Origin: a virus | Length of the DNA stretch: 36,435 bases | Virus record (IMG/VR): IMGVR_UViG_3300050821_023985 | Coordinates: 1-36,435 of that record | Direction: 5' to 3' (one strand) | In this document: positions 922 to 35,724 of the stretch, piece after piece | How the letters are laid out: the number at the start of each line of letters is the position of its first letter | Position numbering within the stretch: position 1 is the first letter of the stretch | Notes under the pieces: generated by a model | The model's database searches: none | Told to the model about the DNA's origin: nothing | What the model saw: the letters and a program-made list of their open reading frames with translations, nothing else | Program-made: the position numbers and the translations under genes

Positions 922-930
922 AATTTATTC

Positions 931-979
931 TTCTTTCTACTCTAATTTTAAGTAGAAAGCAGAGAAATTATTACTTACA
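931..979 (-). promoter_or_regulatory. Bipartite repeated element, copy A (before lysis genes)
   Basis: On the minus strand the element reads TAAGTAATAATTT (977-965), 19 bases, TTAGAGTAGAAA (945-934). The whole 49 bases are identical to the copy at 15077-15125. Within it CTTTCTACT and AGTAGAAAG form a perfect 9-bp stem with a 9-base loop. It fills the gap between the tail hub stop (990) and the holin start (921). It may be a phage promoter (TAATAAT as a -10 candidate, no good -35) or an mRNA leader. Transcription activity is inferred, not shown. Confidence 0.6.
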
Positions 980-15063: not shown

Positions 15064-15076
15064 GTAATACCTCTGG

Positions 15077-15125
15077 TTCTTTCTACTCTAATTTTAAGTA
15101 GAAAGCAGAGAAATTATTACTTACA
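15077..15125 (-). promoter_or_regulatory. Bipartite repeated element, copy B (before structural/protease/capsid genes)
   Basis: This copy is identical over 49 bases to 931-979. Minus-strand boxes TAAGTAATAATTT and TTAGAGTAGAAA are 19 bases apart, with the 9-bp hairpin CTTTCTACT/AGTAGAAAG. It lies 14 bases upstream of the 549-aa gene. The start of the element overlaps the stop of the small Cys4 ORF (AAG TAA TAA). It is probably the promoter or leader of the head block. Confidence 0.62.
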
Positions 15126-15197
15126 CTTACAATATATCTTTAGTTTGGATTCTTTTTTGATACGTTTGTGGCATTTTAGGCATAAGCGCTCGATCAT
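15117..15197 (-). CDS. Tiny Cys4 (zinc-binding-like) peptide, 26 aa
   Basis: A 26-codon ORF starts at ATG 15197, with AGAAG six bases upstream, and ends TAA TAA. It contains LCLKCHKR near the start and YCKCK at the end, so two cysteine pairs (CxxC and CxC) flank a Lys-rich core (Lys/Arg make up about 40 percent). It is small enough to be chance. The ribosome site, paired cysteines and same strand as its neighbours favour a real gene. No function is assigned; a zinc-knuckle nucleic-acid binder is possible. Confidence 0.42.
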   Translation of the reverse strand: MIERLCLKCHKRIKKESKLKIYCKCK

Positions 15198-15379: not shown

Positions 15380-16093
15380 CTAGTTGCCCATACCCATCAT
15401 CATTAATTGTGGAGAGGTAGTAGTTGCGCCTGCTGCTGCCCCTTTAAATGTAGCAGTGAATCCAGCGGTCCCGTTACCAGCTGCATTGTTGTCTGTTGCT
15501 GTTGCATTGGCCGTACCCGTAGCAGATACGGTCTGATAGGCAGTCGCAATAGCCGTATCAGTATTACCGCCAGCCAGACTGCTATTAGCAGCTTGATCAC
15601 TAGTCCAAGGCGAAGATATCGCCGTTACTGATGGCAACCCGCCAGCTCCGGATGAACAACACATAAATACCGCCCACCAGAATTCGACGGTTTGTGTAGT
15701 TGTAGCGGTTGTTCCAGTCGTTCCAGTAGATGTCGAGAAGGCGGTTTGATCGAGAGGAGAGGTTGCATTAGCACCACTCACTTCTGTTATAACAAGCGTC
15801 CATTGCCCTGCACCAGAGGCGCGCGATGCTGTAATACTTGTTGTTCCGCTAGCACAGTTTTTGACATACCAAGCGTCTAGTTGCCCAGTACCACCATTAT
15901 TGATGTCATTTGCCATATTAACGAAGGTTTGTGCTGTTCCAGCAGCAACTGAAACAGATATTACCTGCGTACTGTTTGAACAGACAGCTGCGATTAGTAG
16001 TAGGTTGCCACTACCAGTTGATGATATGGTTTTTGTAATCGAGCCAGCCGAAGTTGCTGTTGCTGAAACTGATTGGACTATTGAGAATGCCAT
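15380..16093 (-). CDS. Beta-sandwich surface protein, homologous to the Dit internal domain
   Basis: This is a 237-aa Thr/Ala/Ser-rich protein that appears to be a single beta-sandwich domain. It aligns over its length with residues 465-662 of the Dit-like protein: both start with a IVQSVSATATSAGSIT-like strand, have GNLLLIAAV or GNFIAITAV, share SPLDQTA followed by a TTTQ stretch, and end in ATFKGA or ATFKAG. It is translationally coupled to the 889-aa repeat protein (TAATG). The C-terminus ends QLMMMGMGN. A role as a head or tail surface, possibly sugar-binding, protein is inferred from the shared domain. Confidence 0.65.
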   Translation of the reverse strand: MAFSIVQSVSATATSAGSITKTISSTGSGNLLLIAAVCSNSTQVISVSVAAGTAQTFVNMANDINNGGTGQLDAWYVKNCASGTTSITASRASGAGQWTLVITEVSGANATSPLDQTAFSTSTGTTGTTATTTQTVEFWWAVFMCCSSGAGGLPSVTAISSPWTSDQAANSSLAGGNTDTAIATAYQTVSATGTANATATDNNAAGNGTAGFTATFKGAAAGATTTSPQLMMMGMGN

Positions 16094-18762
16094 TAGCTTG
16101 AATCATCTTGCCAATAAGCAATATTATAGGTAACAGCTTGCGCTGCTGATAGGTTTGCAGATATACCGGCACCAGGACTGGACTTAAATATATATGCGGG
16201 TGGGGTGACAGTCGCATTGGAGCCAAAGTTAGTAGCGGCTATGGCCTGCAATGGAGTCTGCCACAACAATGTGGCGTCCGTACCCCTAAAATCAGCGGTT
16301 ACAGCTGTAGAAGATGGCGTCACGACGGAGAACGCATAAACTTTCGTCACTCTGTTGGCTACACCCGATACTAGCAGCGTCATACCCGTGGTATTAGCGA
16401 TACCTACGGCTGTCTTTAGATTCCGATAGTTCCACCCGAAATCTGAGGTCGGTAAGGGATTGCTACCAGATATTGTTGTAGTCCCTACTGCTTGAGTCGA
16501 CAGGATGGTTGGGAAGTTGTCCACCACCGCATGCTGGCTACCGCTGACCGAGATAACACTTTGAGTAGTAGGGAAATTGTCTACAATTGCATGCTGTGTA
16601 CCCGAAATACTTACGGTAGTAACAGTGCCATTGATCGTACCAGAGGTAGCTATGGTGTTGCCCGGAACATTGCTAAATGTACCCGAGACCGTCCACGGGC
16701 TGGTGCCCTGCACCACTGTCTGTGTTGTTGGATAGTTATCAACGTGGGCATTGAACGTGCCACTGGCTGATGTAACATTGGGCATTGTACCAATATTGAC
16801 CAACTGCGATGGGTTAAACTGAACGGTTTGGACTGTCGGAAAGTTATCTATATGCGAAAAGTTTGTTCCTGAAGCGGTTGTACCAGGAGTTGTGCTAACA
16901 TTCCCGATCACCTGAACAGTCTGTACGGTTGGATAATTGTCGACATGTACGTTATTGACGCCAGAGGCTGCAACTACACCATTGATTGTGCCGCTAACCG
17001 CTATAGGCTGACCTGGGGTATTAGATATAGTTCCTGAAACTGTCCATGGCACGTTGCCTTGCGTAACTGTGGTTGTGTTCGGAAAATTATCTATTACCGA
17101 ATGAAAGCTGCCTGACACAGAGACAACCGATTGCGTAGTTGGATAATTCCCAATATTGATATTGCTGGTGCCTGAAGCAACTGTTATGGCACTGGGTGTT
17201 TCGTTGCTGATAGTAAAAGTCGTTGGAAAGTTATCTACGACAGCATGCAGGCTACCTGATACTGATGTAACAGTTGTCGTTGTAGGAAAATTATCTACCA
17301 CAGCATGTTGCGTGCCAGAAGTGCTGATAGTAGTGACATTACCGTTGATGGTGCCCGAAGTTGCTAGGGTATTGCCAGGACTATTAGCAATAGTGCCGCT
17401 AATGCTAGTTATTCCAGTAGCGATAGTAGTCTGGACTGAGGGAAAATTATCAACATTGACATTATTCACACCCGAAGCTGTCATCTGTACAGATACCGTC
17501 CCCACGGGCACAACTTTTATTTGCCCGAAATTATCCATTAGTGGCATTGACATCTGACCGTCAGTCAGGTTACCAGCTGGAGCCGCCAAATAGCGTCCTA
17601 ATATTGCTGTTCCAACACCCGGTTTGTTGGTCGACAGTTCAGGATAAGATACAAAGTTGGAAATTGTACCAGATATGCTGGTTATCCCAACGGCCTGCGT
17701 GGTTTGCACGGATGGGAAATTGTCTATTGCGGAGTGTACACTACCAGAGGTAGAGATCACTGTTTGGGTAGTTGGATAATTATCAATATGCGACCAGTTA
17801 GTGCCAGAAGTTGTCACACCTGGCGTGGTGCTAACGCTCCCTATAACCTGCACAGTCTGGACAGTAGGAAAGTTATCAACGTGAGCGTTGAGAGTGCCCG
17901 ACGCTGAAGTTACTGTGCCCGATACGGCAATTGTATTCCCTGGGACATTGCTAAATGTACCAGAGGTCGTCCATGGGGACGTACCCTGTGTCACCGTGGT
18001 TGTGTTAGGAAACGGAACGTTCACCCAGTTTTGGCTGCCTGACACGGTTGGGCTAACCGTAATACCAGGCATACTTTGTACCACAACAGTCTGAACGGTT
18101 GGATAATTATCGATATGAGCGTTTAGTGTCCCGCTAGCAGAGGTGACTGTACCTGAAGTAGACAATACAGTATTAGCAAATGACACTGGTACCTGGCCGC
18201 CCGCTGTTAACTGAACCTGAACAGTATTGCCGTTAACATCCTTATACGCCGCGATTCCTTCGGTAACTGAAGCAATCGCGCGGCGAATGGCATTGTAGAA
18301 CTCTTGGCCATCAGTAAGACGCACGTTCACATAATCAGTTGGATCGTTAGGATTTGTGGGTTTTTTGTTGAGCGTGACTAGATTTTGTAATGTTTTCGCC
18401 AAGATAGTGCGCAGCTCTTCCAAGCCCTCAACTCGCAAACGGTTTTTCTCTAGATTACCTAGGCGCAATGAGTTGTTATCAGTGGCGCTTACGAGACGAG
18501 TAATGGCATTATCCACTTTACTGAAGTCGATAGAAGCAATGATTTTTTCAGGTGGGCGGCTATCTAATATAGCCTCGCCCATTGTTTCGATAGATTTAGC
18601 TATCAGGGCAATGTCGTTACGCATGGACACCATGAAACTACGGTAATCCTCTTTGCTCATGGCCATAACAGTTAAATTACCGTCGGGTATTAGCTCCTGT
18701 AAGAGGGGTGCGATGGCTTTGCGCAATTTGGCTATATCTTCAAATGGTTTTTTAGTTTCCAT
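16093..18762 (-). CDS. Long repeat protein with DNFP repeats (fibre or head-surface protein candidate)
   Basis: This is an 889-aa protein. Residues 1-150 are helical (KPFEDIAKLRKAIAPLLQE) and may anchor it to the virion. From about 190 to 750 there are fourteen [DG]N[FY]P units such as HVDNFPTVQTV, spaced by SGT-rich beta strands. A higher-order unit (VTQG or VVQG, then PWT, then SGTFSNVPGNTIA or a variant) appears three times. A distinct C-terminal domain of about 125 residues starts at SDFGWNYRNLKTAVG and ends NIAYWQDDSS. Repeats of this kind build elongated beta-helical shafts. The gene sits between the MuF and 237-aa genes in the head block, so a head fibre is as likely as a tail fibre. 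TAGGAG precedes ATG. Confidence 0.65.
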   Translation of the reverse strand: METKKPFEDIAKLRKAIAPLLQELIPDGNLTVMAMSKEDYRSFMVSMRNDIALIAKSIETMGEAILDSRPPEKIIASIDFSKVDNAITRLVSATDNNSLRLGNLEKNRLRVEGLEELRTILAKTLQNLVTLNKKPTNPNDPTDYVNVRLTDGQEFYNAIRRAIASVTEGIAAYKDVNGNTVQVQLTAGGQVPVSFANTVLSTSGTVTSASGTLNAHIDNYPTVQTVVVQSMPGITVSPTVSGSQNWVNVPFPNTTTVTQGTSPWTTSGTFSNVPGNTIAVSGTVTSASGTLNAHVDNFPTVQTVQVIGSVSTTPGVTTSGTNWSHIDNYPTTQTVISTSGSVHSAIDNFPSVQTTQAVGITSISGTISNFVSYPELSTNKPGVGTAILGRYLAAPAGNLTDGQMSMPLMDNFGQIKVVPVGTVSVQMTASGVNNVNVDNFPSVQTTIATGITSISGTIANSPGNTLATSGTINGNVTTISTSGTQHAVVDNFPTTTTVTSVSGSLHAVVDNFPTTFTISNETPSAITVASGTSNINIGNYPTTQSVVSVSGSFHSVIDNFPNTTTVTQGNVPWTVSGTISNTPGQPIAVSGTINGVVAASGVNNVHVDNYPTVQTVQVIGNVSTTPGTTASGTNFSHIDNFPTVQTVQFNPSQLVNIGTMPNVTSASGTFNAHVDNYPTTQTVVQGTSPWTVSGTFSNVPGNTIATSGTINGTVTTVSISGTQHAIVDNFPTTQSVISVSGSQHAVVDNFPTILSTQAVGTTTISGSNPLPTSDFGWNYRNLKTAVGIANTTGMTLLVSGVANRVTKVYAFSVVTPSSTAVTADFRGTDATLLWQTPLQAIAATNFGSNATVTPPAYIFKSSPGAGISANLSAAQAVTYNIAYWQDDSS
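16490..18180 (-). repeat. Degenerate tandem repeat region encoding DNFP units
   Basis: The DNA codes for the fourteen DNFP-type units of the 889-aa protein. Plus-strand text such as GGAAAATTATC, GGAAAGTTATC and GGATAATTATC recurs at uneven spacing. Codons vary between units while the amino acids are kept, so the repeat is old and under protein-level selection and is not a recent slippage product. Confidence 0.7.
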
Positions 18763-21467: not shown

Positions 21468-21484
21468 AGATTGATCCTTCTAAA

Positions 21485-21520
21485 TATATTGTAGAGAGAA
21501 AAGAGTGGTTTTATTACTTC
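21485..21520 (-). promoter_or_regulatory. Degenerate bipartite element, copy D (before portal)
   Basis: In the 61-base gap before the portal gene the minus strand has AAGTAATAA (21519-21511) followed by a CT-rich run and ATATTTAGAAGG. The first box agrees with TAAGTAATAATTT of copies A-C; the second is only partly like TTAGAGTAGAAA and its spacing differs. It may be a diverged promoter or leader of the portal-MuF block. Confidence 0.35.
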
Positions 21521-23447: not shown

Positions 23448-23732
23448 TTAAAAGGAGCTGGTGTTATTGATATTAGTCTCACGATAGTACTGTCTGGCTT
23501 CAAGCACCCGCTTAAGCTTGCTCTCCGCTAGTTTGATCGATATACGCCTAATTGAACGGGCGATTCCGGGCTGAGACATACGCAACACATCCGCAATAGC
23601 ATTTTGTGTCCAACCTGTGATGACTAGATCAACAATGACTTGCTCGTTGAGGCTCAGTCTATCGTAGGCGTCTTCGGCGACTTCATCGCCAACAATTCTT
23701 TCGAGTGGTGTTTTACCGCTTGCCTGTGGCAT
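23448..23732 (-). CDS. Helix-turn-helix protein, sigma region 4 / LuxR-like
   Basis: This is a 94-aa protein. Residues 25-65 read LSLNEQVIVDLVITGWTQNA then IADVLRMSQPGIARSIRRI, the pattern of sigma-70 region 4 and related tetrahelical DNA-binding domains. No sigma region 2 is present. It overlaps the zinc ribbon gene by 20 bases and precedes the terminase genes. It could be a transcription factor that turns on late genes, or a DNA-recognition protein that helps terminase. Both are inferences. It is the only clear transcription-regulator candidate in the window. Confidence 0.7.
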   Translation of the reverse strand: MPQASGKTPLERIVGDEVAEDAYDRLSLNEQVIVDLVITGWTQNAIADVLRMSQPGIARSIRRISIKLAESKLKRVLEARQYYRETNINNTSSF

Positions 23733-23919
23733 TGTCCGACCTCATAATTCCAATGACTTGATCCTTCTCTTTGAAAGTGACTGATTTATCCCTTATCTGC
23801 CTCGCCAATATGCCTTTGGAGCAATTAACGCATTTGAGAATCTTGGTATCTTTATCCTCTTTAAGATATTGCTCAAAATCCTTATTGCCACACGAACATG
23901 AATATCTATACACCGGCAT
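23713..23919 (-). CDS. FmdB-like small zinc ribbon protein
   Basis: This is a 68-aa protein starting MPVYRYSCSCGNKDFEQ with a second pair in ILKCVNCSKGILARQI. This is the CxC/CxxC form of the FmdB-type zinc ribbon found in bacteria and phages. Such proteins are thought to bind nucleic acid or act as regulators. It overlaps both neighbours in the operon (14 and 20 bases). The C-terminal half is basic and polar. Confidence 0.75.
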   Translation of the reverse strand: MPVYRYSCSCGNKDFEQYLKEDKDTKILKCVNCSKGILARQIRDKSVTFKEKDQVIGIMRSDNATGKR

Positions 23920-25231
23920 AGCTTAACCTCTGATTCTGGAGCTTTCTGTTAGCCCTCCTTTGTTCACGATTGAGTTTTGGCTCACGATCCTCTTGAGCGG
24001 CACTAGCAGCTTTCTCTATAACCTTTATCCATTGCTCAGTAATGGAAGCCCAACTATGTTGCTTAGCCCATGCGTAGGCGGCATTAACGTCAGGTCCGAC
24101 ACCGTTGATCAAACCTTCGATTAAATCAGCTGCTTTCTCGACATCGGCCAATGGACGTACACGCTCGTTGTCTGACTCCTTAGTTATCCACAGGCTTTTG
24201 CCACCACAGGGGATGAGTAGTCCACGATGTTCTGCAAGGATTTCCGCTACTGATGTATTATCTGGTGCAATGACGGGAGTACGTGTGGCCATTCCCTCAG
24301 TTATGGACAACCCCCAGCCTTCACCGAGCGTAGTCGAAAGTACGCAATTTGATACGTTGTAGATCATATTTATGATATCTACTGACAAGCCCTTATCTGG
24401 TGAGAAAGCGTTAGGGGCTGGGAACATAAAATCTGTGCCAAACTTAAGATCCCAGTTATCTGCCATAACTAGCAGATTACCACCGACATCGTTGTGAGCC
24501 ATATGCATATAGAGCATCACGTTGTCGTGGCCTCTATCTTTTAATTCACGTAGGATGGCAAAATTACGAGCTATGTCTTTGCGAGATTGATTGCGATTAA
24601 CATTGGTGATCAGGAATTTGCCATCAGCTTTGAAGTTAAAATATTGCTCTCTGAATGCTTTCTTCTGGGCGATGTTATCTATTGGGTAGAAGTCTGCAGT
24701 ATTTGTACCGTGGTAAATGACTTTTATTTTATCCTTCAGCTCTGGTTTAAACTTAAGGCATTCTTGTTTGGCATAATTGGTATAAGTCACAGGGAAATCT
24801 ATTTTGGCTACTACATCTTCTATCCAATCGTGCTTCGGCTCAGCATCAATAGGAAAGTAGTAGACCAATTTTGGCTTGGATGGATTGCCTGCTATCTGAT
24901 CGAGCAGCTGTTTCATGAATTGCTGGACAATGAATGTATCCTGCAAAGCAAATATTACGTCATAGGGCTTGGAGGCTATTCGATCAAGTAGCACCTGACG
25001 ACCAAACACATCGCCATATACCCCACCATTGCGGATACCGCTCAATGCTGGCCACACATTACCAGGAAAGCGATCTCTATCATACGGGCCACCATCATAG
25101 TTGATGCCCACCACATCGATTTCATATCTGCCAGTTGCTTCTAGGTTGCGCATAATCTCGCTCATGACCTTAGCGAAGCCAGTAGCACATGCATAATCAC
25201 CCCAAGCAAGAATACGAGTCTTAGCCTGCAT
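23906..25231 (-). CDS. GT4-family glycosyltransferase (GT-B fold)
   Basis: This is a 441-aa protein. The N-terminal Rossmann domain has a GT-B glycine loop (WGDYACATGFAKVMSEIMRN). The C-terminal domain has the retaining EX7E motif in LGEGWGLSITEGMATRTPVI and DNTSVAEIL, binding the nucleotide sugar. It likely transfers a hexose from a nucleotide-sugar donor. It ends in a basic tail (LNREQRRANRKLQNQR). It is part of a set with two GT2 enzymes and two methyltransferases, so it probably extends a sugar chain on a virion, cell-surface or DNA target; the acceptor cannot be seen. Confidence 0.88.
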   Translation of the reverse strand: MQAKTRILAWGDYACATGFAKVMSEIMRNLEATGRYEIDVVGINYDGGPYDRDRFPGNVWPALSGIRNGGVYGDVFGRQVLLDRIASKPYDVIFALQDTFIVQQFMKQLLDQIAGNPSKPKLVYYFPIDAEPKHDWIEDVVAKIDFPVTYTNYAKQECLKFKPELKDKIKVIYHGTNTADFYPIDNIAQKKAFREQYFNFKADGKFLITNVNRNQSRKDIARNFAILRELKDRGHDNVMLYMHMAHNDVGGNLLVMADNWDLKFGTDFMFPAPNAFSPDKGLSVDIINMIYNVSNCVLSTTLGEGWGLSITEGMATRTPVIAPDNTSVAEILAEHRGLLIPCGGKSLWITKESDNERVRPLADVEKAADLIEGLINGVGPDVNAAYAWAKQHSWASITEQWIKVIEKAASAAQEDREPKLNREQRRANRKLQNQRLSYAGV

Positions 25232-25955
25232 AGTTCGGTATCCAGTCTTTAGCAGTTAACTCAGGGTTATTGTACGGATGATCGTAGGCCTCTTTGCCAC
25301 CATGACCCTCGGGCATACCACCCCATTTCATCGCGTAATATTGCCTAGACTTTTCACTAGACGGGTTGCTCATCAATGCAGTAGATACACCTCCAAAATG
25401 CACACAGCTGCTAGCAGTAGTACAGATAGCCCGATACCCAAGCATCTCAATGCGACGATGACTATCGTTGTCCTCAAACCAAGCTGGCTTAAAGTTTTCA
25501 TCAAATCTACCTACCTTTTCCATAAAGTTTCTTTTGACCATGAAGCAAGAATAGTTAGGATGGTCTGCGACACTGGCAGGAGCCACATAGGGTTGTTGGT
25601 GCGCCAGAACATGATAAGGGTCAGAAAGTTCACCGATGATATTATTGCTGCTAACAAGTACCACATTATCTTTCTCCAATCTATCCATCTCTTTGACTAA
25701 GTTATCCACGCCGTCCTGATCAAACAAAATATCGTCGTTGATAATAAAAATATACTCACATCCACCGGCTACCGCTCTATCAAAGCCGTCATTCCAGGCT
25801 TGTGACAGTGGCTTATTAGCGCGCCATTGTTCCTCTAAATAGACTTCAAACTGATGCTCTGTTTTAATGCTAGCTATGGCCTCGACACAGCCTTTAAAAT
25901 TGTTGAGAACAGGGATAGTGAAACCTATTTTTGGTAGCTGTGGTTTGGAATTCAT
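25221..25955 (-). CDS. GT2-family glycosyltransferase
   Basis: This is a 244-aa protein with a GT-A fold. The beta-strand start is KIGFTIPVLN-like (PKIGFTIPVLNNFKGCVEAI), there is a LSQAWNDGFDRAV helix, and the metal-binding DxD-type motif is YIFIINDDILFD (about residues 88-99). SCFMVKRNFMEKVGRFDENF and WFEDNDSHRRIEMLGYRAIC follow, as in rhamnosyl- and related GT2 enzymes. It is coupled to the 54-aa gene by TAATG and overlaps the GT4 gene by 11 bases. Substrate unknown. Confidence 0.87.
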   Translation of the reverse strand: MNSKPQLPKIGFTIPVLNNFKGCVEAIASIKTEHQFEVYLEEQWRANKPLSQAWNDGFDRAVAGGCEYIFIINDDILFDQDGVDNLVKEMDRLEKDNVVLVSSNNIIGELSDPYHVLAHQQPYVAPASVADHPNYSCFMVKRNFMEKVGRFDENFKPAWFEDNDSHRRIEMLGYRAICTTASSCVHFGGVSTALMSNPSSEKSRQYYAMKWGGMPEGHGGKEAYDHPYNNPELTAKDWIPNYAG

Positions 25956-26119
25956 TATTTTTCCTCCTTTTTAAAGCCTGCTTGTTCTTTTGTCTCTATT
26001 TGTTGGTTAAAGAGATAGTTACTCAATGCAGAACAGAGCACCTTAACACTCTGTTCTGGTGCCATTTGTCCAATGGCTTCTATCCTAGCTATCGTCTTAA
26101 CAATCTCAGGAGAGTTCAT
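25955..26119 (-). CDS. Small protein of the modification operon, 54 aa
   Basis: The frame runs from ATG 26119 (MNSPEIVKTIARIEAIGQ) to TAA 25957-25955. It overlaps the methyltransferase end by 14 bases and the GT2 ATG by one base (TAATG). It is mostly helical with a Lys/Glu-rich end (KEQAGFKKEEK) that includes the GT2 ribosome site AAGGAGG. No family recognised. The exact fit between two overlapping genes makes it a real gene. Confidence 0.7.
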   Translation of the reverse strand: MNSPEIVKTIARIEAIGQMAPEQSVKVLCSALSNYLFNQQIETKEQAGFKKEEK

Positions 26120-26693
26120 ATGGTGGCTCCGCTGGTTTCACAGCTCTTAAAGTTAAAAATATATGCCCATTCTCAAATCGTTGATCGACTCGTTTAAACT
26201 TCGAAGTGTGACCATAATCATCGTGCTGTCCTACATAATCACCACTAAAATGATTAACTGTTGCCGGTGTCCAAACAAAGCAATGGGTGGGATCTGACCA
26301 GACTGCTTCATTGTTCCAGTTAGGCAAGTAGCTAGGCGTCTGCATGTAGAATTCGCCGTCATGCTTAAGCACGCGATAGATCTCGTTAAAGAGTTCGATC
26401 ATGCAGTTGCGTTTCATAAGTACTAACTTGGGAACATTACCAACCAGTGCAAGCTCTTTCACATAAAGGACTGACGGTATATGTTCCAAGAAATCATAGG
26501 CAGTCACAAGATCAAACATGTCTGACTCATATGGGATATCTTCTATAGCTAAATCAGCCGCCTTATTCTCTTTGAGCCATGGCCGCTCAGTGCCAACAAT
26601 ATCTACGCCATAGCCTTCATAGTCCTCGGTACCTTTGTAACCTTTGCGGATTCTGTCAGCACCACCAACGCCTAGATCGAGTTGTTTACGCAT
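26106..26693 (-). CDS. SAM-dependent methyltransferase, class I
   Basis: This is a 195-aa protein. It opens with motif I, LDLGVGGADRIRKG (residues 5-18), then YGVDIVG for motif II. MFDLVTAYDFLEHIP marks the post-II region of Methyltransf_11-like enzymes, and IYRVLKHDGEFYMQTP corresponds to motif III. It lacks a long C-terminal domain. In sugar clusters such enzymes often O-methylate glycans, and it sits between an FkbM enzyme and two glycosyltransferases. The acceptor is not known. Confidence 0.85.
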   Translation of the reverse strand: MRKQLDLGVGGADRIRKGYKGTEDYEGYGVDIVGTERPWLKENKAADLAIEDIPYESDMFDLVTAYDFLEHIPSVLYVKELALVGNVPKLVLMKRNCMIELFNEIYRVLKHDGEFYMQTPSYLPNWNNEAVWSDPTHCFVWTPATVNHFSGDYVGQHDDYGHTSKFKRVDQRFENGHIFLTLRAVKPAEPPYELS

Positions 26694-26907
26694 TTTTTAT
26701 ATCTATCTCTCCGTCATGCAGATCTATATACTTGCCGTCTTCCCAGACTTCACGGACTCTGCCATAACTATTGACTATCTTTACCCCTTTGACGATTTTG
26801 ATGATCCCATCGTCCTGATAGAATTTAGATATCTTGTCTAGTTCGAACCATGTTTCATGGTTAATATATGCTGGCGTCGAACTATAGTATGCTTTAGGCG
26901 AGTCCAT
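26686..26907 (-). CDS. Hypothetical protein, 73 aa, modification operon
   Basis: This protein is small, beta-rich and charged, with DKISKFYQDDGIIKIVKG and GRVREVWEDGKYIDLHDGEI. It overlaps FkbM by 14 bases and the methyltransferase by 8. No membrane segment, cysteine or known motif is visible. Strand-turn-strand repeats with aromatic residues may form a small beta barrel. Function unknown. Confidence 0.65.
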   Translation of the reverse strand: MDSPKAYYSSTPAYINHETWFELDKISKFYQDDGIIKIVKGVKIVNSYGRVREVWEDGKYIDLHDGEIDIKNA

Positions 26908-27568
26908 AGTAGGTCAACTCACTTTCCACTTTAATATCGCTTCTAATGAAGAAAACATCGTTGTGTGATTGCAGTGGCGTGTCCTGGGTGAAGCCTTGTT
27001 TAACGAGCCAATCAATTACTTCTTGGCCAGGGTGTTCGCCTTCGTAGACAGGCGTTTCACTAAGCTCAACCGAGATGTATTTGAAACCTCGGAGTAAAGA
27101 CCCACAGCCGTGCAATACTTCCCATTCATTGCCCTGAGTGTCTAAGACTAGACAATCGTAGTCACTAGTGTTGAAATCTGGGTGGTTGTATCGAAAAAAA
27201 TCGTCTAATCGAGTTAAGGTGACCGTTTCTGTGCCCACTACTACAGCGTTATCTGTCCAGTTCTTTTGCACTTCTGGGTGATTGATAATCGGTTCTAGGA
27301 GAGATGATCCTTGGCCATCACCTTTCGTAATGAGTAATTGTGCTCTACCGTGCCGGTCGCTTAATGCAGTGCCATAGCATGGAACATCTGGGTAGCTTTC
27401 TTCGAACTTTCTTCGGGCGCTAAGCAGAGGCTCAAAACATAGAATATTTTCAATACCTAATTCCTGGTAGCTAGGTATTTCTTCACCGTCACTAGCGCCA
27501 CCATGTATAAGACCCTTAAGCTTATAGCCCTGTTGGGTGAAATGCGTGACTTTGGCTGGTTGTATCAT
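26894..27568 (-). CDS. FkbM-family methyltransferase
   Basis: The start at ATG 27568 overlaps the GT2 stop as ATGA and has GGAAAG four bases upstream; ATG 27580 is also possible. The ~224-aa product shows GLIHGGASDGEEIPSYQELG (SAM site), ILCFEPLLSARRKFEE, TVTLTRLDDFF and YDCLVLDTQGNEWEVLHG with YISVELS, the order seen in FkbM enzymes. FkbM proteins O-methylate sugars or secondary metabolites. It likely caps or marks glycans made by the neighbouring glycosyltransferases. Confidence 0.87.
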   Translation of the reverse strand: MIQPAKVTHFTQQGYKLKGLIHGGASDGEEIPSYQELGIENILCFEPLLSARRKFEESYPDVPCYGTALSDRHGRAQLLITKGDGQGSSLLEPIINHPEVQKNWTDNAVVVGTETVTLTRLDDFFRYNHPDFNTSDYDCLVLDTQGNEWEVLHGCGSLLRGFKYISVELSETPVYEGEHPGQEVIDWLVKQGFTQDTPLQSHNDVFFIRSDIKVESELTYYGLA

Positions 27569-28470
27569 AGCGCTTTCCATGTATAGTTACCTTGCATGTC
27601 GACTTTTAAAGGTAGCAGATCGTTAGTCTCTGTACGCCATTGGCTCTCAGCTAACCAATAAATGGTATCGTCTATGCCAGTTGCGTTTACTGTGTGTCCG
27701 TGTGATTCAAGCCAGTTCTTGCCAAAATCGGCATATTTCTGAGAATGATTGGCGGTAGCACCGCTATAGTGATCGAACTTAATACCGATCATCTTCATAT
27801 GGTGGCCACGAGCCGCAACTTTTACGGACATAATCCGGTCATAAAAGTGATGAGGCGCTCGCCAATCAGCAAAAAGATCAGTATGATCGGCAAGATCTTG
27901 CAAAACTGTGCGGCGAAAGAATAGGCCAACTCCGTCAAAAACTGCGGCAGCCATTTCCCCTGTATGTAATTCACCGTGATGTAATGCAGCCGGACTATGA
28001 CATTCACATTTTCCCCATTCTTGCCCAAGCATGTGCGACATTGAACCTTCACGGCCACCATCATGATTAACACCCCTTGCCCCGAACAATCCGGCTAGCC
28101 CAAGTTGTGGATCGTCGTTAAAAGCTTTCACGATTCGTTCATTCCAACCCGGCTCGTGAATTAGCACATCGTTATGAATGTAGACCAATACTTTGCCTTT
28201 AGATTCCTCAAGCCCTTGCTTGAAGGTCGGCAGTACACCTATGTTGAGTTCATTGCGCACATACTTCAGATGCAAATGCGACCCGAGTGTGGCCTCTTTG
28301 GCTTTAGCTCTATAGTTTTCATCGGAGCCGTTATCTATCAGAACCAACTCTGTGGGCTGTGTTGTGTAGTGTACGAGCTTACTGAGGCAATTCGCTGTGA
28401 TATCCCAATTGTCTATGAAAGGGATGATTAGCGATATCTCAAAGTTTTTCGCTGGTGTCTGTGGTTTCAA
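27565..28470 (-). CDS. GT2-family glycosyltransferase, TTG start
   Basis: This is a 301-aa protein. ISLIIPFIDNWDITANCLSK starts the GT-A fold, TELVLIDNGSDENYR binds the nucleotide, and VLVYIHNDVLIHEPGW carries the DxD-like HND motif. FDGVGLFFRRTVLQDL and a region with DHYSGATANHSQ follow. The start is TTG 28470, inside the groEL end, with GGAGGG 8 bases upstream; no ATG lies nearby in frame. It overlaps groEL by 32 bases, so the chaperonin and sugar genes are translated from one message. Confidence 0.86.
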   Translation of the reverse strand: MKPQTPAKNFEISLIIPFIDNWDITANCLSKLVHYTTQPTELVLIDNGSDENYRAKAKEATLGSHLHLKYVRNELNIGVLPTFKQGLEESKGKVLVYIHNDVLIHEPGWNERIVKAFNDDPQLGLAGLFGARGVNHDGGREGSMSHMLGQEWGKCECHSPAALHHGELHTGEMAAAVFDGVGLFFRRTVLQDLADHTDLFADWRAPHHFYDRIMSVKVAARGHHMKMIGIKFDHYSGATANHSQKYADFGKNWLESHGHTVNATGIDDTIYWLAESQWRTETNDLLPLKVDMQGNYTWKAL

Positions 28471-29986
28471 TTACACATCCCTCCGAGGTTAAGAATGAAG
28501 CAGCTGTTTTTGCTGCATTCTGTATTGCATTGATAACAACATTCAGCGGGTCAATCACTCCACCCGTATAAGCATTAATAACTTCGCCAGAGTTGAAGTT
28601 GATAGTGAGATTACTATCAGTTATCAGCTTATTAAGATCACCCCTATCTAGCTCTACGCCTGAATTGCTAGCAATCAATCTTAGCGGTACTTCGCAGGCC
28701 TTTTGCAAAATGTAGTGCTTGGCTGCTGAAGCTGCTCGATAAAGAGCTGCGCCACCACCAGCTACTACGCCATTGGCTAAAGCTGCTCTCGTAGCGTTGA
28801 TAGCATCCTCGGCGCGCAATCGGATCTCCTCGCGCTCCGCATCAACTACTGAGCCGACTTTCACGACGCAGACGGCAGAATGCATCTTGGCAATTCGCTC
28901 TTTAAGAGCCTCGGCTGAGAAATCTTTGGCGTTCGATAACTGGCCTTGTAGCTCTTGTACTCGTGCTTCTTTGTCGCCATCACCGCCGATGATCAGGACG
29001 TCGCTTAAGGTAGCAACGACTTTATCTACATGTCCAAACTCGGTCTCAGTGAAATCCATAACCTTACGGCCGTCTTTGGGTGTTATGAAGGTTGCGCCGG
29101 CTACGGCACACACATCACGCAAGAAACCCTCAGCATGTTCGCCAAAGCCAACCACTTTTACAGGCATGACATTGAAGACTTGCTGATTGCGATTCAGTAC
29201 AGCCACAGATAAAGCGCTACCTGTAATATCATTAGCTATAATCACGCACTTCTTATGACCTTTTTGATTGGCGGCCTGCATGATACGGAGCATTTCCTCG
29301 CCTAAAGTCAGGCTTTGGTCGGTCACGAAAATCATGGTGTCATCATAAATTGCTTGTTGCAGGGTGGGGTTAGTGATGAAGTACTGCGAGATAAGGCCAC
29401 CTCTTAACTTTAGACCCTCAGATTTCTCTGACACCGTCTCGGATGACACATTATCCTCAATGGTCACTAGGCCATCTACACCAACCTGGTGAATAGCGTC
29501 AGCTATCACTGCGCCAAGTTTAGGATTTCCGCAGGATATGGTAGCAACGTTGGTAAGCGCCTCTATGCTATCTGCTTGTTGCTTTTGTGCTTGTAGGGCT
29601 AGTAAAACACTATCGAGATCAGTATCTATTTCTTCGCGAACAGCTACCGCATCCTTGCCACTTGCGAGCTGCTGCATTCCATATTCGACAATAGCAGCCG
29701 TTAATACTGCCGTGGTTGTAGTGCCATCACCCGCGAGATCGTTGGTCTTTTCGGCCGCGCTACGAACAATCTTAATACCATTACTGATAAAAGGATCAGA
29801 ATCTTTTAGCTCCCGCAGTATTTTTACGCCATCGTTAATGATGCGCACTTCTGATGAGTATGGGTTAGTGTCTAAATTTACATTGCGGCCACGTGGACCG
29901 ATTGTACCGCCAACCAGCTTAGCGGCTAGATCGATACCTCTTTTGACTTTTAGTCGTGAATCACTACCAGTCTCGATTATTCTCAT
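28439..29986 (-). CDS. groEL: Phage-encoded GroEL-like chaperonin (Cpn60)
   Basis: This is a 515-aa group I chaperonin. ATPase residues are kept: GTIGPRGRNV (27-36), Asp52 in IINDGVKI, LAGDGTTTTAVL with Asp87, Asp394 in RAEDAINATR and NGVVAGGGAAL (405-415). DPLNVVINAIQNAAKTAASFL (479-499) matches the C-terminal equatorial part. The apical domain keeps YFITNP (202-207). It is shorter than E. coli GroEL (548) and ends ETTDTSEKL without a GGM tail. The intact sites argue for an active folding machine. It is coupled to groES by ATGA. In known phages such proteins assist capsid folding; here that is inferred. Confidence 0.95.
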   Translation of the reverse strand: MRIIETGSDSRLKVKRGIDLAAKLVGGTIGPRGRNVNLDTNPYSSEVRIINDGVKILRELKDSDPFISNGIKIVRSAAEKTNDLAGDGTTTTAVLTAAIVEYGMQQLASGKDAVAVREEIDTDLDSVLLALQAQKQQADSIEALTNVATISCGNPKLGAVIADAIHQVGVDGLVTIEDNVSSETVSEKSEGLKLRGGLISQYFITNPTLQQAIYDDTMIFVTDQSLTLGEEMLRIMQAANQKGHKKCVIIANDITGSALSVAVLNRNQQVFNVMPVKVVGFGEHAEGFLRDVCAVAGATFITPKDGRKVMDFTETEFGHVDKVVATLSDVLIIGGDGDKEARVQELQGQLSNAKDFSAEALKERIAKMHSAVCVVKVGSVVDAEREEIRLRAEDAINATRAALANGVVAGGGAALYRAASAAKHYILQKACEVPLRLIASNSGVELDRGDLNKLITDSNLTINFNSGEVINAYTGGVIDPLNVVINAIQNAAKTAASFLTSEGCVIETTDTSEKL

Positions 29987-30228
29987 TTTACAACCTCGGC
30001 AAGGATCGCCTCTTCCTTAATAATCCAATAAGCCTGACCCTCGATAGTGACGGGTGCGTCTGCATAACAAACAACAATGTCACCAACTGAATAGCCGGTA
30101 ACATTGCTCCCCATGCTTACGATTTTGTACCTCATCTCTGAGACTGCACCCGCTGGAACCTGGAGACCTCCGAAGTCCTCGTTGTACTGGTCTAAAAAGA
30201 TATAATCACCCCTAGCTTGTAGTGTCAT
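29983..30228 (-). CDS. groES: Phage-encoded GroES-like co-chaperonin (Cpn10)
   Basis: This is an 81-aa protein, shorter than the usual 95-97. The start (LQARGDYIFLDQYNEDFGG) matches the first Cpn10 strand and mobile loop; the loop core is GGLQVPAG instead of the cellular GGIVL. RYKIVSMGSNVTGYSVGDIV replaces the roof-loop region with a short turn, and YWIIKEEAILAEV matches the last strand (VLIMSESDILAIV in E. coli). It lies directly before groEL with ATGA overlap. The ribosome site TAGGGGG is five bases before ATG. It probably caps the phage GroEL, and perhaps the host one. Confidence 0.88.
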   Translation of the reverse strand: MTLQARGDYIFLDQYNEDFGGLQVPAGAVSEMRYKIVSMGSNVTGYSVGDIVVCYADAPVTIEGQAYWIIKEEAILAEVVK

Positions 30229-30238
30229 ATATGCCCCC

Positions 30239-30263
30239 TATATACACATGTTATGTGTATATA
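30239..30263. promoter_or_regulatory. 25-bp perfect palindrome over the groES transcription start (operator candidate)
   Basis: Arms TATATACACAT and ATGTGTATATA flank a 3-base centre. The palindrome covers the predicted +1 and three bases of the -10 box. This is where a dimeric repressor would block transcription. It is not a CIRCE element (TTAGCACTC-N9-GAGTGCTAA), so HrcA control is unlikely. In RNA it could also fold as an 11-bp hairpin just before the ribosome site. Confidence 0.65.
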
Positions 30264-30289
30264 GTACAGAGGCCATGAGATTTTGTCAA
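30261..30289 (-). promoter_or_regulatory. Sigma-70-like promoter of the groES-groEL operon
   Basis: On the minus strand TTGACA (30289-30284) is followed by a 17-base spacer and TACTAT (30266-30261). The -35 box is a perfect match and the -10 has five of six bases (TATAAT). Predicted start about 30254, roughly 26 bases before the groES ATG. It would be read by the unmodified host polymerase and probably feeds the whole overlapping chain to the terminase genes. Confidence 0.8.
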
Positions 30290-30319
30290 CAAGGTTAATT
30301 AAAACGTTGATGCTTATTC

Positions 30320-30691: not shown

Positions 30692-30735
30692 TTTCTACTC
30701 TAAGTTTAGATGGCATGTGGATAAATTATTACTTA
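30692..30735 (-). promoter_or_regulatory. Bipartite repeated element, copy C (before 113-aa gene)
   Basis: Minus strand: TAAGTAATAATTT (30735-30723), 19 unlike bases, TTAGAGTAGAAA (30703-30692). Both boxes and their spacing equal copies A and B, while the 19-base spacer differs completely and the 9-bp hairpin is lost. That means the two boxes, not the stem, are what is conserved. It lies in the 95-base gap before the 113-aa gene. Confidence 0.6.
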
Positions 30736-30756: not shown

Positions 30757-31101
30757 TCATGATTTAGGCTCCTGCTTAAGGGTAGCTTCAAGCTCCCTAA
30801 TACGTTCGCCAACTGCGAGATATAGGTCTGCTACATCGTTCTTTGTCATCTTACCAAAGGGTTTGAATTCTCCGTTAGGCTCATTCTGTTGATTATAGAT
30901 GCCTATTAGATTATCGAGTTCACTTATCCGTGCCTTACGGTCTACTTCTTCGAGGAGGTAAAGAAGTTTATCACGTTGTCCGTGTTTAAAGCAGCGTGAA
31001 AAAGTAGCACATTTTAGATCATCATGATAAATACTTGTCTCAACCAAGTTATCAAGAATTTTATCTATTCTCTCCTGCATATCTTTTGGTAGGTTGCTCA
31101 T
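30757..31101 (-). CDS. Hypothetical protein, 114 aa
   Basis: A helical, charged protein (KDMQERIDKILDNLVETSIY; VGERIRELEATLKQ at the end) with two cysteines (CATFSRC). ATGA overlap with the gene before it and AGGAG 8 bases before the start. Its repeated helical pattern suggests a small coiled-coil or DNA-associated protein. No known family recognised. Confidence 0.65.
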   Translation of the reverse strand: MSNLPKDMQERIDKILDNLVETSIYHDDLKCATFSRCFKHGQRDKLLYLLEEVDRKARISELDNLIGIYNQQNEPNGEFKPFGKMTKNDVADLYLAVGERIRELEATLKQEPKS

Positions 31102-31385
31102 GATTTACACTCCTGTTTAAAGGCAGGATCAAGGTCTTGTTTGCTAATCATGAATGTGTAGCCTGGGTTATCGACCTTGTCATATTCAGGGAATAGGTCA
31201 CGCTTTAGCTGTTTTCGTGCCTTAGTGAGTTCAGCCCGTATGGCTTTCTTGGCTTCAATGAAGGCGAAGTCATAGTAAACATTGCCGTGCTTGTCTTCGA
31301 CGTTCTTGGGAGATGTATACTTCTTTAGGATGTCATCTAACCAATCAGGTTCTATCCTCTCTCCGTCATTGGTAGGGGTAGTCAT
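31098..31385 (-). CDS. Hypothetical protein, 95 aa, DWLDDIL family
   Basis: The start is ATG 31385, which overlaps the preceding TGA (ATGA) and has GAAGGAG five bases upstream; an upstream TTG at 31403 is unlikely. The N-terminus EPDWLDDILKKYT resembles YDWMDDILTKLT of the next gene. FIEAKKAIRAELTKARKQL also has a counterpart (FYEQQAKKSIIKKL). The two appear to be diverged duplicates. Function unknown. Confidence 0.66.
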   Translation of the reverse strand: MTTPTNDGERIEPDWLDDILKKYTSPKNVEDKHGNVYYDFAFIEAKKAIRAELTKARKQLKRDLFPEYDKVDNPGYTFMISKQDLDPAFKQECKS

Positions 31386-31633
31386 GATTGCTCCTTCGGG
31401 CAAATATGCATTATAGAATTACAGCGAAGACAACAACCAGGACAGTGGCCTACCCAATAGGCGCTAGTATTATCTAACTTTTTGATAATGGATTTCTTCG
31501 CTTGCTGCTCGTAGAATTTCATACGCGCATCCGTAGTTTTAAAGTCCTGCCTATCTGTATGAAGTAAATGGTACTCTTCCCCACACTCAGCAGTTAGCTT
31601 TGTTAATATATCGTCCATCCAGTCGTATTTCAT
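31382..31633 (-). CDS. Hypothetical protein, 83 aa, DWMDDIL family with cysteine cluster
   Basis: This is the partner of the 95-aa protein at its N-terminus (DWMDDIL). It adds a cysteine-rich end (HCPGCCLRCNSIMHICP) that could bind zinc. It overlaps the HNH gene by 4 bases. The pair is found next to the homing-type endonuclease, but a link is not shown. Function unknown. Confidence 0.66.
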   Translation of the reverse strand: MKYDWMDDILTKLTAECGEEYHLLHTDRQDFKTTDARMKFYEQQAKKSIIKKLDNTSAYWVGHCPGCCLRCNSIMHICPKEQS

Positions 31634-32139
31634 TTCTTTCCCTCCTCTATTGTCCCGAGTAGTTCGGGGTTTTCGTATCTCTTAAACTCCCCAAATGCGA
31701 GCTCAGCTTCCCTCTCATAGACCCTATGAGCCTCTTGCTCGCTATCAAATATCCCTAAATATTTTCTATTACAATAGGCCTGCCATTTATTAATCTGTTT
31801 ATGGTAGGTAACCCCCTTGTATCGGCTAGTACCTTGTTTGTGCTTACCGCGATTCATACTATTCTGAGCGGCTGTTACTACACGTAGGTTCGCGCGCTGG
31901 TTGTTTGAGGGGTTACCATCAATATGATCGACCATACATTTGTTAGTTGTGTCTAAACCTAGTATTTGTCTGGCCATATGGATATGTCGAGATTCCATTT
32001 TGCCATTAATCTTGCCCAGGTAGTTATTGCGTACTGCATATCCATGGCCATCTAAGCGCCAAGTAAATAGAGATAGATCAGGATAATCACTATCATCTAC
32101 CCATATTTCCTGACCTTTAGATGTGAATATAGTAGTCAT
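31630..32139 (-). CDS. HNH endonuclease with AP2 DNA-binding domain
   Basis: This is a 169-aa protein. The HNH region is HIHMARQILGLDTTNKCMVD then HIDGNPSNNQRANLRVV (about residues 53-90), with catalytic-type His-Asn residues intact. The C-terminal part SRYKGVTYHKQINKWQAYCN and YLGIFDSEQEAHRVYE is an AP2 domain that reads DNA. Such stand-alone phage enzymes usually are homing endonucleases that spread by gene conversion. It sits among small overlapping genes without an intron or disturbed neighbours. Confidence 0.9.
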   Translation of the reverse strand: MTTIFTSKGQEIWVDDSDYPDLSLFTWRLDGHGYAVRNNYLGKINGKMESRHIHMARQILGLDTTNKCMVDHIDGNPSNNQRANLRVVTAAQNSMNRGKHKQGTSRYKGVTYHKQINKWQAYCNRKYLGIFDSEQEAHRVYEREAELAFGEFKRYENPELLGTIEEGKK

Positions 32140-32140
32140 T

Positions 32141-32386
32141 CTACAGCTCTTTTACCCTTTCCCTAAGATCCTTTATGGCAGCCCTATACCCGTTGCCCCA
32201 ATCATTGATATGTTCTGTTTCCGCCCATATAACGCTGTCTGGGTCTCCATCAATCAGCTCAAGGAATAAAGATTTGATTTGTTGCTTAACAGCAACACTA
32301 GCAAAGTTTACATCTCCAAAGTTTTTACCACATTCGGAACACCGTAGGTTCCTATGTATCAATAATATTTCATCTAGTTTAGTCAT
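32141..32386 (-). CDS. Hypothetical protein, 81 aa, CxxC motif
   Basis: Starts MTKLDEILLIHRNLRCSECG, with a single CxxC pair near residues 16-19 and an acidic/aromatic middle (DGDPDSVIWAETEHINDWGN). The end is helical (YRAAIKDLRERVKEL). One CxxC might bind metal as a dimer. It is packed between the HNH gene and a membrane protein gene. Family not recognised. Confidence 0.62.
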   Translation of the reverse strand: MTKLDEILLIHRNLRCSECGKNFGDVNFASVAVKQQIKSLFLELIDGDPDSVIWAETEHINDWGNGYRAAIKDLRERVKEL

Positions 32387-32601
32387 GGCCTACCCCCACA
32401 AGTCCAATCTCTAGGGTTATCTGACCCGACATTCACGGCCGCATCATCACATGACCGGCTGTATGTATCCTTAGCGTTCTGCAAGGGTGTAATTGGATGT
32501 GTTGCAACCCAGCCTATCCAGAATATTGACAGGCAAGCTACAAATATCAATACGGCTAGTAAGATCCAATTACCAGGTTCCCAACGTGACCAACTACTCA
32601 T
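32383..32601 (-). CDS. Small membrane protein, 72 aa
   Basis: The start is ATG 32601, overlapping the preceding TGA (ATGA); a GTG at 32625 is less likely. One membrane segment, NWILLAVLIFVACLSIFWIG (about 11-30), is followed by a polar tail with two cysteines (RSCDDAAVN, WTCGG). The stretch FVACLS looks faintly like a lipobox, but position -3 is Phe and no clear signal peptide precedes it. Function unknown. Confidence 0.6.
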   Translation of the reverse strand: MSSWSRWEPGNWILLAVLIFVACLSIFWIGWVATHPITPLQNAKDTYSRSCDDAAVNVGSDNPRDWTCGGRP

Positions 32602-32783
32602 AATTCTTCGATCCTCTCTCCACAAGCATTTTTATGCACCAATCTTGTAAGAGGCTCCCACAATGACCAAATGCGCCAAGTATTAGTATGTTCGGCTACC
32701 AACCAGACAGCACGCCACGAAGACCACTCATAGTCATCATAATAAGCTCTACTGCGAAGTATGACTCTTCTCATCTCACCCAT
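32598..32783 (-). CDS. Hypothetical Trp-rich protein, 61 aa
   Basis: Starts at ATG 32783 behind AGGAGG eight bases upstream. Seven Trp are present, in EWSSWRAVWLVAEHTNTWRI and SLWEP, and the protein is basic at the start. It overlaps the Ser/Thr/Arg repeat gene by 13 bases. Aromatic and amphipathic content suggests interaction with a membrane or sugar, but there is no typical membrane helix. Family not recognised. Confidence 0.55.
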   Translation of the reverse strand: MGEMRRVILRSRAYYDDYEWSSWRAVWLVAEHTNTWRIWSLWEPLTRLVHKNACGERIEEL

Positions 32784-33361
32784 AACATGTGCCTCCTAAT
32801 CATGCGCACAATCCACCAACCCATAGCTATAAACCCAATAAGCAACACCAACATAAAGCCTGTACCAATCCAGGAATTGTCTTGTACGACTGCTACTTGG
32901 CCATTCTGGCTTTGAGCCTGAACAATCTGTTGATTAGTGTTGTATTGTGGCCTATCAAACAGATACATCCACATCCAGAAATTACCACCGCCATAGCCCC
33001 AACCAAAGGGGTGGAACATAGAGTTGTACCACATGTGATCATGATAATAGTTGTTGACCACCGTTGTGCGTTGGCTAGAGCTAGTCACCTGGTTGATATT
33101 TGAGCGGGTGACTGGTATGGTTCTTGTGGATGTATATCTGCTAGACGTGGATGGGGTAGATGTACGAGTGGAGGTGTAACTACTAGAGGTAGACGGGGTA
33201 CTCGTTCTTGTCGAACTATAGCTTTTAGAGGTTGACGGGCTACTTGTGCGTGTAGAGCTATAGCCGCTAGATGACGGAGAGCTTGTTCTTGTGGAACTAT
33301 ACGAACTACCTGATGATGAGCTACGCGTAGAACTATAACTTGCTGCAAAGTCCTCTGACAT
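32771..33361 (-). CDS. Ser/Thr/Arg/Pro-rich repeat protein with C-terminal membrane helix
   Basis: This is a 196-aa protein. Residues 8-85 hold six units of 12-14 residues around SYSSTRTSTPSTS. An aromatic patch (NNYYHDHMWYNSMFHPFGWG and NFWMWMYLFDRP) follows. A membrane segment, WIGTGFMLVLLIGFIAMGWW (about 164-183), precedes RMIRRH, so the short C-terminus is probably inside. No signal peptide is seen. The repeats could be a glycosylation target or a flexible rod on the envelope. Not recognised as any named family. Confidence 0.68.
   Translation of the reverse strand: MSEDFAASYSSTRSSSSGSSYSSTRTSSPSSSGYSSTRTSSPSTSKSYSSTRTSTPSTSSSYTSTRTSTPSTSSRYTSTRTIPVTRSNINQVTSSSQRTTVVNNYYHDHMWYNSMFHPFGWGYGGGNFWMWMYLFDRPQYNTNQQIVQAQSQNGQVAVVQDNSWIGTGFMLVLLIGFIAMGWWIVRMIRRHMLWVR
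33110..33340 (-). repeat. Tandem repeat coding for STRTS-type units
   Basis: About six units of 36-42 bases, seen on the plus strand as recurring GAACTATA(G/C), GTTCTTGT and GTAGA(C/T)GGGG text. Codons differ between units, but lengths differ by whole codons only (12, 13, 14, 14, 14 residues), so the reading frame is maintained while unit number may vary. Confidence 0.6.
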
Positions 33362-33363
33362 GG

Positions 33364-33558
33364 CTACGCACCATATTCTTCGGCTACTGCTATGTAGAGA
33401 CCTTTGAGGAACGCGATTATATCATCCTCGTCAGCCTTGAGTGTACCCTTAAGATATTTAGCAGCATTTAAAAACTCTAACTCTGTGCTGTTTTTCTCGA
33501 ACTCACCATCTAGTGGCACTTCGTTTCGTATACGATTAACAAATTTAGCGCTTAACAT
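33364..33558 (-). CDS. Hypothetical protein, 64 aa
   Basis: Start ATG 33558 is preferred: AAAGGAG lies seven bases upstream, while the longer frame needs a TTG. The product begins MLSAKFVNRIRNEVPLDGEF and is acidic and helical (LKADEDDIIAFLKGLYIAV). No membrane segment or cysteines. Lies between the coiled-coil recombination accessory gene and the repeat membrane protein. Function unknown. Confidence 0.62.
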   Translation of the reverse strand: MLSAKFVNRIRNEVPLDGEFEKNSTELEFLNAAKYLKGTLKADEDDIIAFLKGLYIAVAEEYGA

Positions 33559-33587
33559 TTCCCTACTCCTTTTATTGGTTACTGCGT

Positions 33588-34577: not shown

Positions 34578-34713
34578 TTTTCTTCCTTCTTTCAGAGTTA
34601 GCCTTGCCCACCATCCCGAGTAATATCCCTATAAGGACGAGCGACATTATCGCCACAGTTATCTCAGGGTATAGTCCGAATGCGTACACGACTGTATTGT
34701 TGATAAAAGTCAT
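34543..34713 (-). CDS. Small membrane protein, 56 aa
   Basis: Start ATG 34713 is chosen over TTG 34734. It has a hydrophobic stretch (VYAFGLYPEITVAIMSLVLI then GILLGMVG) that could make one or two membrane passes, and a basic tail (SERRKKNGRQ). It overlaps the coiled-coil gene by 35 bases and follows a 28-aa membrane peptide by one base. Function unknown; could be a small holin-like or anti-defence membrane protein. Confidence 0.55.
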   Translation of the reverse strand: MTFINNTVVYAFGLYPEITVAIMSLVLIGILLGMVGKANSERRKKNGRQPITGDIS

Positions 34714-34714
34714 C

Positions 34715-34801
34715 TTAAAACCTGCTCTTTGCAAAATAGAGCGCCAGAATCACAAGGAATGCCACGACCATAGCAATGAAAGAGGCCTCTAGGTTGCTCA
34801 C
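34715..34801 (-). CDS. Very small membrane peptide, 28 aa
   Basis: A 28-codon frame from GTG 34801, which overlaps the preceding TAG by one base, to TAA 34717-34715. The product has one membrane helix (FIAMVVAFLVILALYFA) and a basic end (KSRF). It fills the gap exactly between two genes. The ribosome site is weak, so translation may depend on coupling. An overlapping 61-codon frame (34710-34895) was judged less likely. Confidence 0.45.
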   Translation of the reverse strand: MSNLEASFIAMVVAFLVILALYFAKSRF

Positions 34802-35226: not shown

Positions 35227-35417
35227 TTCTTTGCCTTTCCGCGTCTACTTTTACTGCCGCCTTTTGCACCAGCCACACGTGCTAATCCATTAATTGTGAA
35301 ACCCGAGTTAAGCCTTTTACCACCTCCTTTTTTGCCAAGTCTGGAATAAAAATCATCTCCGTGTCTCAGCCGGTTTGTCTTTGCTGCTTTGACCCCTCCC
35401 TCTTTTGTCCCTGGCAC
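35223..35417 (-). CDS. Small basic KGG-motif protein, GTG start
   Basis: This is a 64-aa protein that starts at GTG 35417 with AAGGAG eight bases upstream. It is Gly/Lys/Arg-rich with KEGGVKAAKTNRLRHGDDFY, LGKKGGGKR and GAKGGSKSRRGK. KGG-type repeats of this kind occur in stress proteins and small phage proteins and suggest nucleic-acid binding. It overlaps the next gene by 4 bases. Confidence 0.66.
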   Translation of the reverse strand: MPGTKEGGVKAAKTNRLRHGDDFYSRLGKKGGGKRLNSGFTINGLARVAGAKGGSKSRRGKAKK

Positions 35418-35491
35418 GTTTGGTTCTCCTTTTAAAACTTATCTTTAATTTGGTCTTTTCATATTTCATTGTGTAAAGAGTCAGGAGACTG

Positions 35492-35701: not shown

Positions 35702-35724
35702 TCCGGTGCCCCCCTAGTTTGTTG

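Follow-up and report, generated by a model that had tools for sequence, protein, structure and literature searches.

Background

Several described phage systems share features with the element reported here. At the middle promoters of phage T4, a MotA box with the sequence (a/t)(a/t)(a/t)TGCTTtA is located 12+/-1 bases from the -10 element, and transcription proceeds by sigma appropriation (PMC2988021). The RinA, ArpU and Ltr proteins of Gram-positive phages control packaging, capsid and lysis genes via a promoter with a -10 element, and act on repeats upstream of that one promoter, at -107 to -42 in phi13 (PMC13123087). In T4 gene e, the promoter is situated in the 5' arm of a hairpin, and the ribosome-binding site of this lysis gene is hidden in read-through RNA (PMC3014915). 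Finally, cluster K mycobacteriophages carry the SAS/ESAS elements, with GGGATAGGAGCCC near start codons and a 17-bp inverted repeat pair (PMC3203893).

The element analyzed here occurs at four sites (A to D, Table 1) and has points in common with each of these systems. As at T4 middle promoters, a host-type -10 is retained and a phage box takes the place of the -35 element; however, the box is AAGTAATAA(TTT) rather than a MotA box, it is 14-17 bases from the -10, the genes served are late ones, and neither Pfam nor PHROGs named a MotA or AsiA relative among the proteins scanned in this contig fragment. As in the RinA/ArpU/Ltr systems, a small phage protein gene (encoding 94 amino acids) is found directly before terS, and the genes for packaging, capsid and lysis are predicted to be controlled from -10-containing promoters. 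Unlike those systems, each of the four predicted promoters has a single box, which overlaps the position of the -35, and the 94-aa protein has no match to the RinA, ArpU or Ltr families in Pfam, NCBIfam or PHROGs, matching sigma-region-4 and generic regulator families instead. Membership in the T4 middle or the Ltr/RinA systems is not supported; the box sequence is new, but the kind of element is familiar from both. Site A resembles T4 gene e in having a predicted promoter-in-hairpin at a lysis gene, and site B is similar, whereas the promoter is not of the T4 late type and sites C and D do not share the hairpin. Like SAS/ESAS, these are two-part repeated non-coding elements before selected genes, but the sequence is another one (GGGATAGGAGCCC is absent from the four sites), there is no 17-bp inverted repeat pair, and a -10 is present.

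Sequence record and gene arrangement

The window analyzed is an entire virus record (IMGVR_UViG_3300050821_023985), linear and 36,435 bases in length, with cut genes at both ends, so that the contig is a fragment. Practically all genes are carried on the minus strand, and the shared orientation of the sites therefore carries no information. Non-coding DNA makes up 3.4% of the window, and placements mostly in gaps are 2.5% of those possible.

Site A precedes a holin-like gene and then a CHAP lysin (the lysis block), and site B precedes the gene of a 549-aa protein, followed by a head protease/major head-like protein (the capsid, or capsid-tail, block). Site D falls within the 61 bases that separate the terminase gene from the portal gene and precedes the latter, and site C precedes a block running into groES-like, groEL, glycosyltransferase and terminase genes. 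The earlier observation that copies stand in gaps before gene blocks holds for all four sites. These are spaced about 6 to 14 kb apart, the genes 3' of them are late-type (CHAP lysin, head protease/major head-like protein, portal, groEL), and their placement is that of a late-promoter layout; no site was found in the replication-side part of the window (30757-36435).

An ordinary promoter pair, TTGACA-17-TACTAT, is present in the gap before groES/groEL. It follows that a second, sigma-70-like class exists in this phage and that box 1 belongs to a separate class, and the groES/groEL promoter provides a clear control. Within this gap (30229-30319, minus strand), after the pair, comes an inverted repeat with perfect 12-bp arms, CTATATACACAT-AAC-ATGTGTATATAG; it overlaps the -10 and is likely a repressor operator. 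The short groES-like gene (29983-30228) stands before the phage GroEL gene (28439-29986), whose product is about 38% identical at best to the phage records compared, and a block of glycosyltransferase and methyltransferase genes (23906-28470) separates groEL from the regulator and terS genes.

Copies of the element

The first-pass annotation described two boxes, TAAGTAATAATTT and TTAGAGTAGAAA, always 19 bases apart, at three locations, and proposed a motif search for the two boxes. A search of the whole record for TAAGTAATAATTT-N19-TTAGAGTAGAAA recovered exactly these three (977-934, 15123-15080 and 30735-30692, minus strand, all in gaps), with the same coordinates and fixed spacing, and no further match at <=3 mismatches in the 36,435 bases. 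The identity of copies A and B over 49 bases was likewise borne out and is part of a longer block with 57 of 59 positions identical; A and B appear to be a recent copy of this one 59-bp block and are counted as one, leaving effectively three independent sites. Between copies A and C, 35 of 44 bases are identical, 25 of 25 in the boxes versus 10 of 19 in the spacer, which argues that the boxes are held by selection and not by mere recent copying. That copy C keeps only the boxes was nearly right, except that TAAA directly 5' of box 2 is also kept. The boxes are not two separate signals flanking an inert spacer.

The weak copy noted at 21511-21519, which lies before the portal gene, is a real fourth site, ranked top by a matrix in whose construction it had no part. 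This matrix was derived from A and C alone and 72,784 placements were scored; site D scored 15.0, above every placement other than A, B and C themselves and a pair of A/B echoes on the opposite strand, and the next placement scored 8.1. Given box 1, a plain match count over the remainder of site D is merely suggestive (0.04), and a -10 hexamer and TAGAA both in register arise in about 1 of 100,000 shuffles, by criteria that were chosen post hoc. AAGTAATAA is found four times in the window, each time on the minus strand and in a gap. The pattern AAGTAATAA-N17-TAMAMT-N5-TAGAA, derived from the four sites themselves by aligning on site D, has four matches in the window, which are the four sites, and none in 100 shuffles. 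AGTAATAA has one further copy, within a gene at 3475, and there only 1 of 6 bases of the -10 is present at the corresponding place.

Beyond this record, the exact element had no match in viral contigs, and its DNA had none in the phages and plasmids searched. The looser pattern given above for the four sites, searched in 2.9 million viral contigs (IMG/VR), returned one unrelated sequence, in four records, where it overlaps the start codon of a tail-sheath-like gene. The comparison with relatives, also proposed earlier, was carried out as well. The sole close relative found, L004 (7.5 kb, with portal and terminase 58-70% identical), has no such site, nor does any of about 45 contigs related by a distant terminase only (26-50% identity), and no relatives via the 549-aa protein or GroEL were confirmed in viral contigs. 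Hence there is no cross-species conservation to use, which is the main weakness of the analysis.

Two side observations concern these regions. A 26-codon reading frame, MIERLCLKCHKRIKKESKLKIYCKCK (window about 15111-15190, minus strand), terminates within box 1 of site B, and its last codons together with the element are also present at site A; there, no gene preserves the frame. An 889-aa protein (16093-18762) has many degenerate repeats, is without a PHROGs family, and is in part common to L004.

Table 1. Positions of the predicted promoter elements, predicted hairpins and candidate regulator gene in the window
Feature	Position	Strand	Remarks
Site A box 1, TAAGTAATAATTT	965..977	-	-39 to -27; phage-specific, replaces the -35 element
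Site A -10 hexamer, TAAAAT (5/6)	945..950	-	
Site A box 2, TTAGAGTAGAAA	934..945	-	last -10 base, discriminator, predicted start (+1 = A938)
Site A leader, 17 nt	predicted start A938 to ATG at 921	-	holin-like gene
Site A RNA hairpin (predicted)	928..963	-	10 continuous pairs plus 3 below a 1x1 mismatch; covers ribosome-binding site in read-through RNA only
Site B box 1	15111..15123	-	
Site B -10 hexamer, TAAAAT (5/6)	15091..15096	-	
Site B box 2	15080..15091	-	predicted start A15084; 21-nt leader, ATG at 15063 (549-aa protein)
Site B hairpin, same kind (predicted)	15070..15111	-	UCUCUG also pairs with CAGAGG at ribosome-binding site
Site D box 1 core, AAGTAATAA	21511..21519	-	
Site D -10 hexamer, TACAAT (5/6)	21488..21493	-	in register
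Site D TAGAA start region	21478..21482	-	in register; predicted start A21481; 14-nt leader before portal gene
Site C box 1	30723..30735	-	
Site C -10 hexamer, TAAACT (4/6)	30703..30708	-	
Site C box 2	30692..30703	-	predicted start A30696; 35-nt leader, ATG at 30661 (first gene of the groEL-containing block)
94-aa protein gene	23448..23732	-	sigma-region-4/LuxR-type helix-turn-helix; just upstream of terS; candidate box 1 reader

Organization of the probable promoters

If the A of TAGAA is numbered +1, box 1 extends from -39 to -27 and a -10 hexamer from -12 to -7, 17 bases 3' of AAGTAATAA at each site. Compared with the TATAAT of sigma-70 promoters, the hexamers of A, B, C and D agree at 5, 5, 4 and 5 of 6 bases, and the lower value of site C is a point against the promoter reading. 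A TTGACA-like -35 reached at most 3 of 6 bases at any spacing of 15-19 bases at the four sites. The first-pass view that no standard -35/-10 pair fits was therefore correct as to TTGACA but not as to the -10, which is in exact register at all four sites. Box 2 spans the last base of the -10 through the predicted start (AGAA), and the two boxes are best interpreted as conserved end segments of a single promoter. The predicted leaders (Table 1) would each retain the ribosome-binding site. Reading box 1 itself as the -10 (AATAAT, 5 of 6 in A-C) was tried and rejected, as a -35 never rose above 3 of 6 and box 2 was left without a role.

The common register, placement and uniqueness of the sites, all seen in the DNA itself, lend good support to the earlier suggestion of a phage-specific promoter or activator site, and the element is taken, with a probability of roughly three in four, to be a class of phage-specific late promoter. 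Transcription from the four promoters would be by a multi-subunit (host) RNA polymerase, with sigma region 2 reading the -10 hexamer TAMAMT and box 1 filling the -35 region; since box 1 is not a sigma-70 -35 hexamer, its reader is probably a phage factor. The RNA would start at AGAA within box 2, 14 to 35 nt 5' of each start codon, and the promoters would serve the groEL/packaging, portal, capsid-tail and lysis blocks, presumably late in infection. For a phage with almost no known relatives, this amounts to a testable transcription plan having four starts predicted to the base and one candidate factor.

A complete alternative sigma factor, from phage or host, or a phage RNA polymerase might instead read both boxes, with box 2, and not a host-type -10, as the second element. 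Box 2 is invariant at all of its 12 positions among A, B and C; this exceeds what a -10 plus start would need and is consistent with such a reader, whose gene could lie outside a contig fragment with cut ends. However, site D has the -10 and TAGAA without TTAGAG, and the scan of the encoded proteins, as far as it extended, turned up neither a region-2 sigma factor nor a polymerase. Single-subunit polymerase promoters are compact, and the variable 17-19-base stretch between the boxes is unlike them. Overall, a reader of this kind is distinctly improbable.

A candidate factor

For the proposed phage-specific late promoter, a candidate reader of box 1 is the 94-aa protein, whose gene is flanked by a zinc-ribbon gene and the terS-like gene, in an order identical in L004, where the counterpart is 42% identical. 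The protein matches the sigma-factor family TIGR02937 at region 4 (3.5e-4, below the curated cut-off) and the phrog_6831 transcriptional regulator (2e-5), its PHROGs matches being of the sigma/transcriptional-regulator type. Its predicted model (pLDDT 83) resembles the -35-binding domains of SigD, SigE and SigA region 4 (Z about 8, rmsd 1.2-3) and also aligns to LuxR-type domains, with Z 8-9 across the sigma and LuxR-type matches. Against the assignment, the fold is common to LuxR-type regulators and the Z values are middling. Among distant terminase relatives, the regulator was absent from the eleven records searched whole. That the 94-aa protein reads box 1 as a promoter factor is plausible but tentative, and less likely than not; if it does so, it would represent a minimal route for redirecting the host RNA polymerase.

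Predicted RNA hairpins

In the predicted RNA folds of sites A and B, box 2 and bases beyond it form pairs with the promoter spacer (z -4.5 and -4.1). When the cost of opening the ribosome-binding site was computed in read-through RNA, A, B and C ranked 1, 2 and 4 of 38 genes, rank 1 being the least accessible. These values were evaluated by shuffling the upstream part only, with 500 shuffles per site. Opening at site A costs 13.3 kcal/mol in read-through RNA versus 0.05 in RNA from the predicted start, and 1 of 500 shuffles was as good, a clear effect; the corresponding values are 5.1 versus 2.3 kcal/mol for site B (44 of 500, a modest effect) and 7.1 versus 5.5 kcal/mol for site C (45 of 500, weak), which folds differently. 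Site D had no hairpin effect (455 of 500 upstream shuffles).

At A and B, then, read-through RNA would hide the ribosome-binding site and promoter-begun RNA would expose it. That this arrangement works in the phage is possible, at somewhat less than even odds, and if true, the lysis-gene hairpin would extend the logic of T4 gene e to a second phage, unrelated to T4. A two-layer late switch, in which a stand-alone sigma-region-4-like phage protein replaces the host -35 reader at the four promoters and the lysis/capsid hairpin silences read-through mRNA, so that lysis and capsid proteins are made only from late starts, is unlikely.

The stable A/B hairpins over the ribosome site, together with the accessibility ranks of A, B and C, could also be taken to indicate an RNA leader or an element that controls processing or translation, in which case the boxes would work at the RNA level. 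Box 1, however, is outside any shared structure, C folds otherwise, D is without such a hairpin, and there was no Rfam family match. The processing leader offered by the first-pass annotation is not favored because no RNA structure is common to all copies, and a transcript-level role for the boxes appears very improbable. What unites the four sites is not the hairpin, which is an extra feature of A and perhaps of B.

Least probable of all is a DNA-binding repeat with another job (a repressor operator, a site for replication or packaging, or a recombination linker that has spread): the near-perfect palindrome TTTCTACTTAAAATTAGAGTAGAAA in A/B, the recently copied look of the 59-bp A/B block and the AGTA(A/G)(T/A)AA common to box 1 and box 2 would suit it, but the palindrome is lost in C and D, and every site is 9-30 bases from a start codon with the -10 in register.

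Other features of the window

A 196-aa protein (32771-33361) contains Ser/Thr repeats (SSTRTSSPS) and a membrane stretch at its C-terminus. The 19-base start region AGGGAAAGAAATGAAATAC is near-identical in two genes, at 31625-31643 and 35218-35236 (minus strand).
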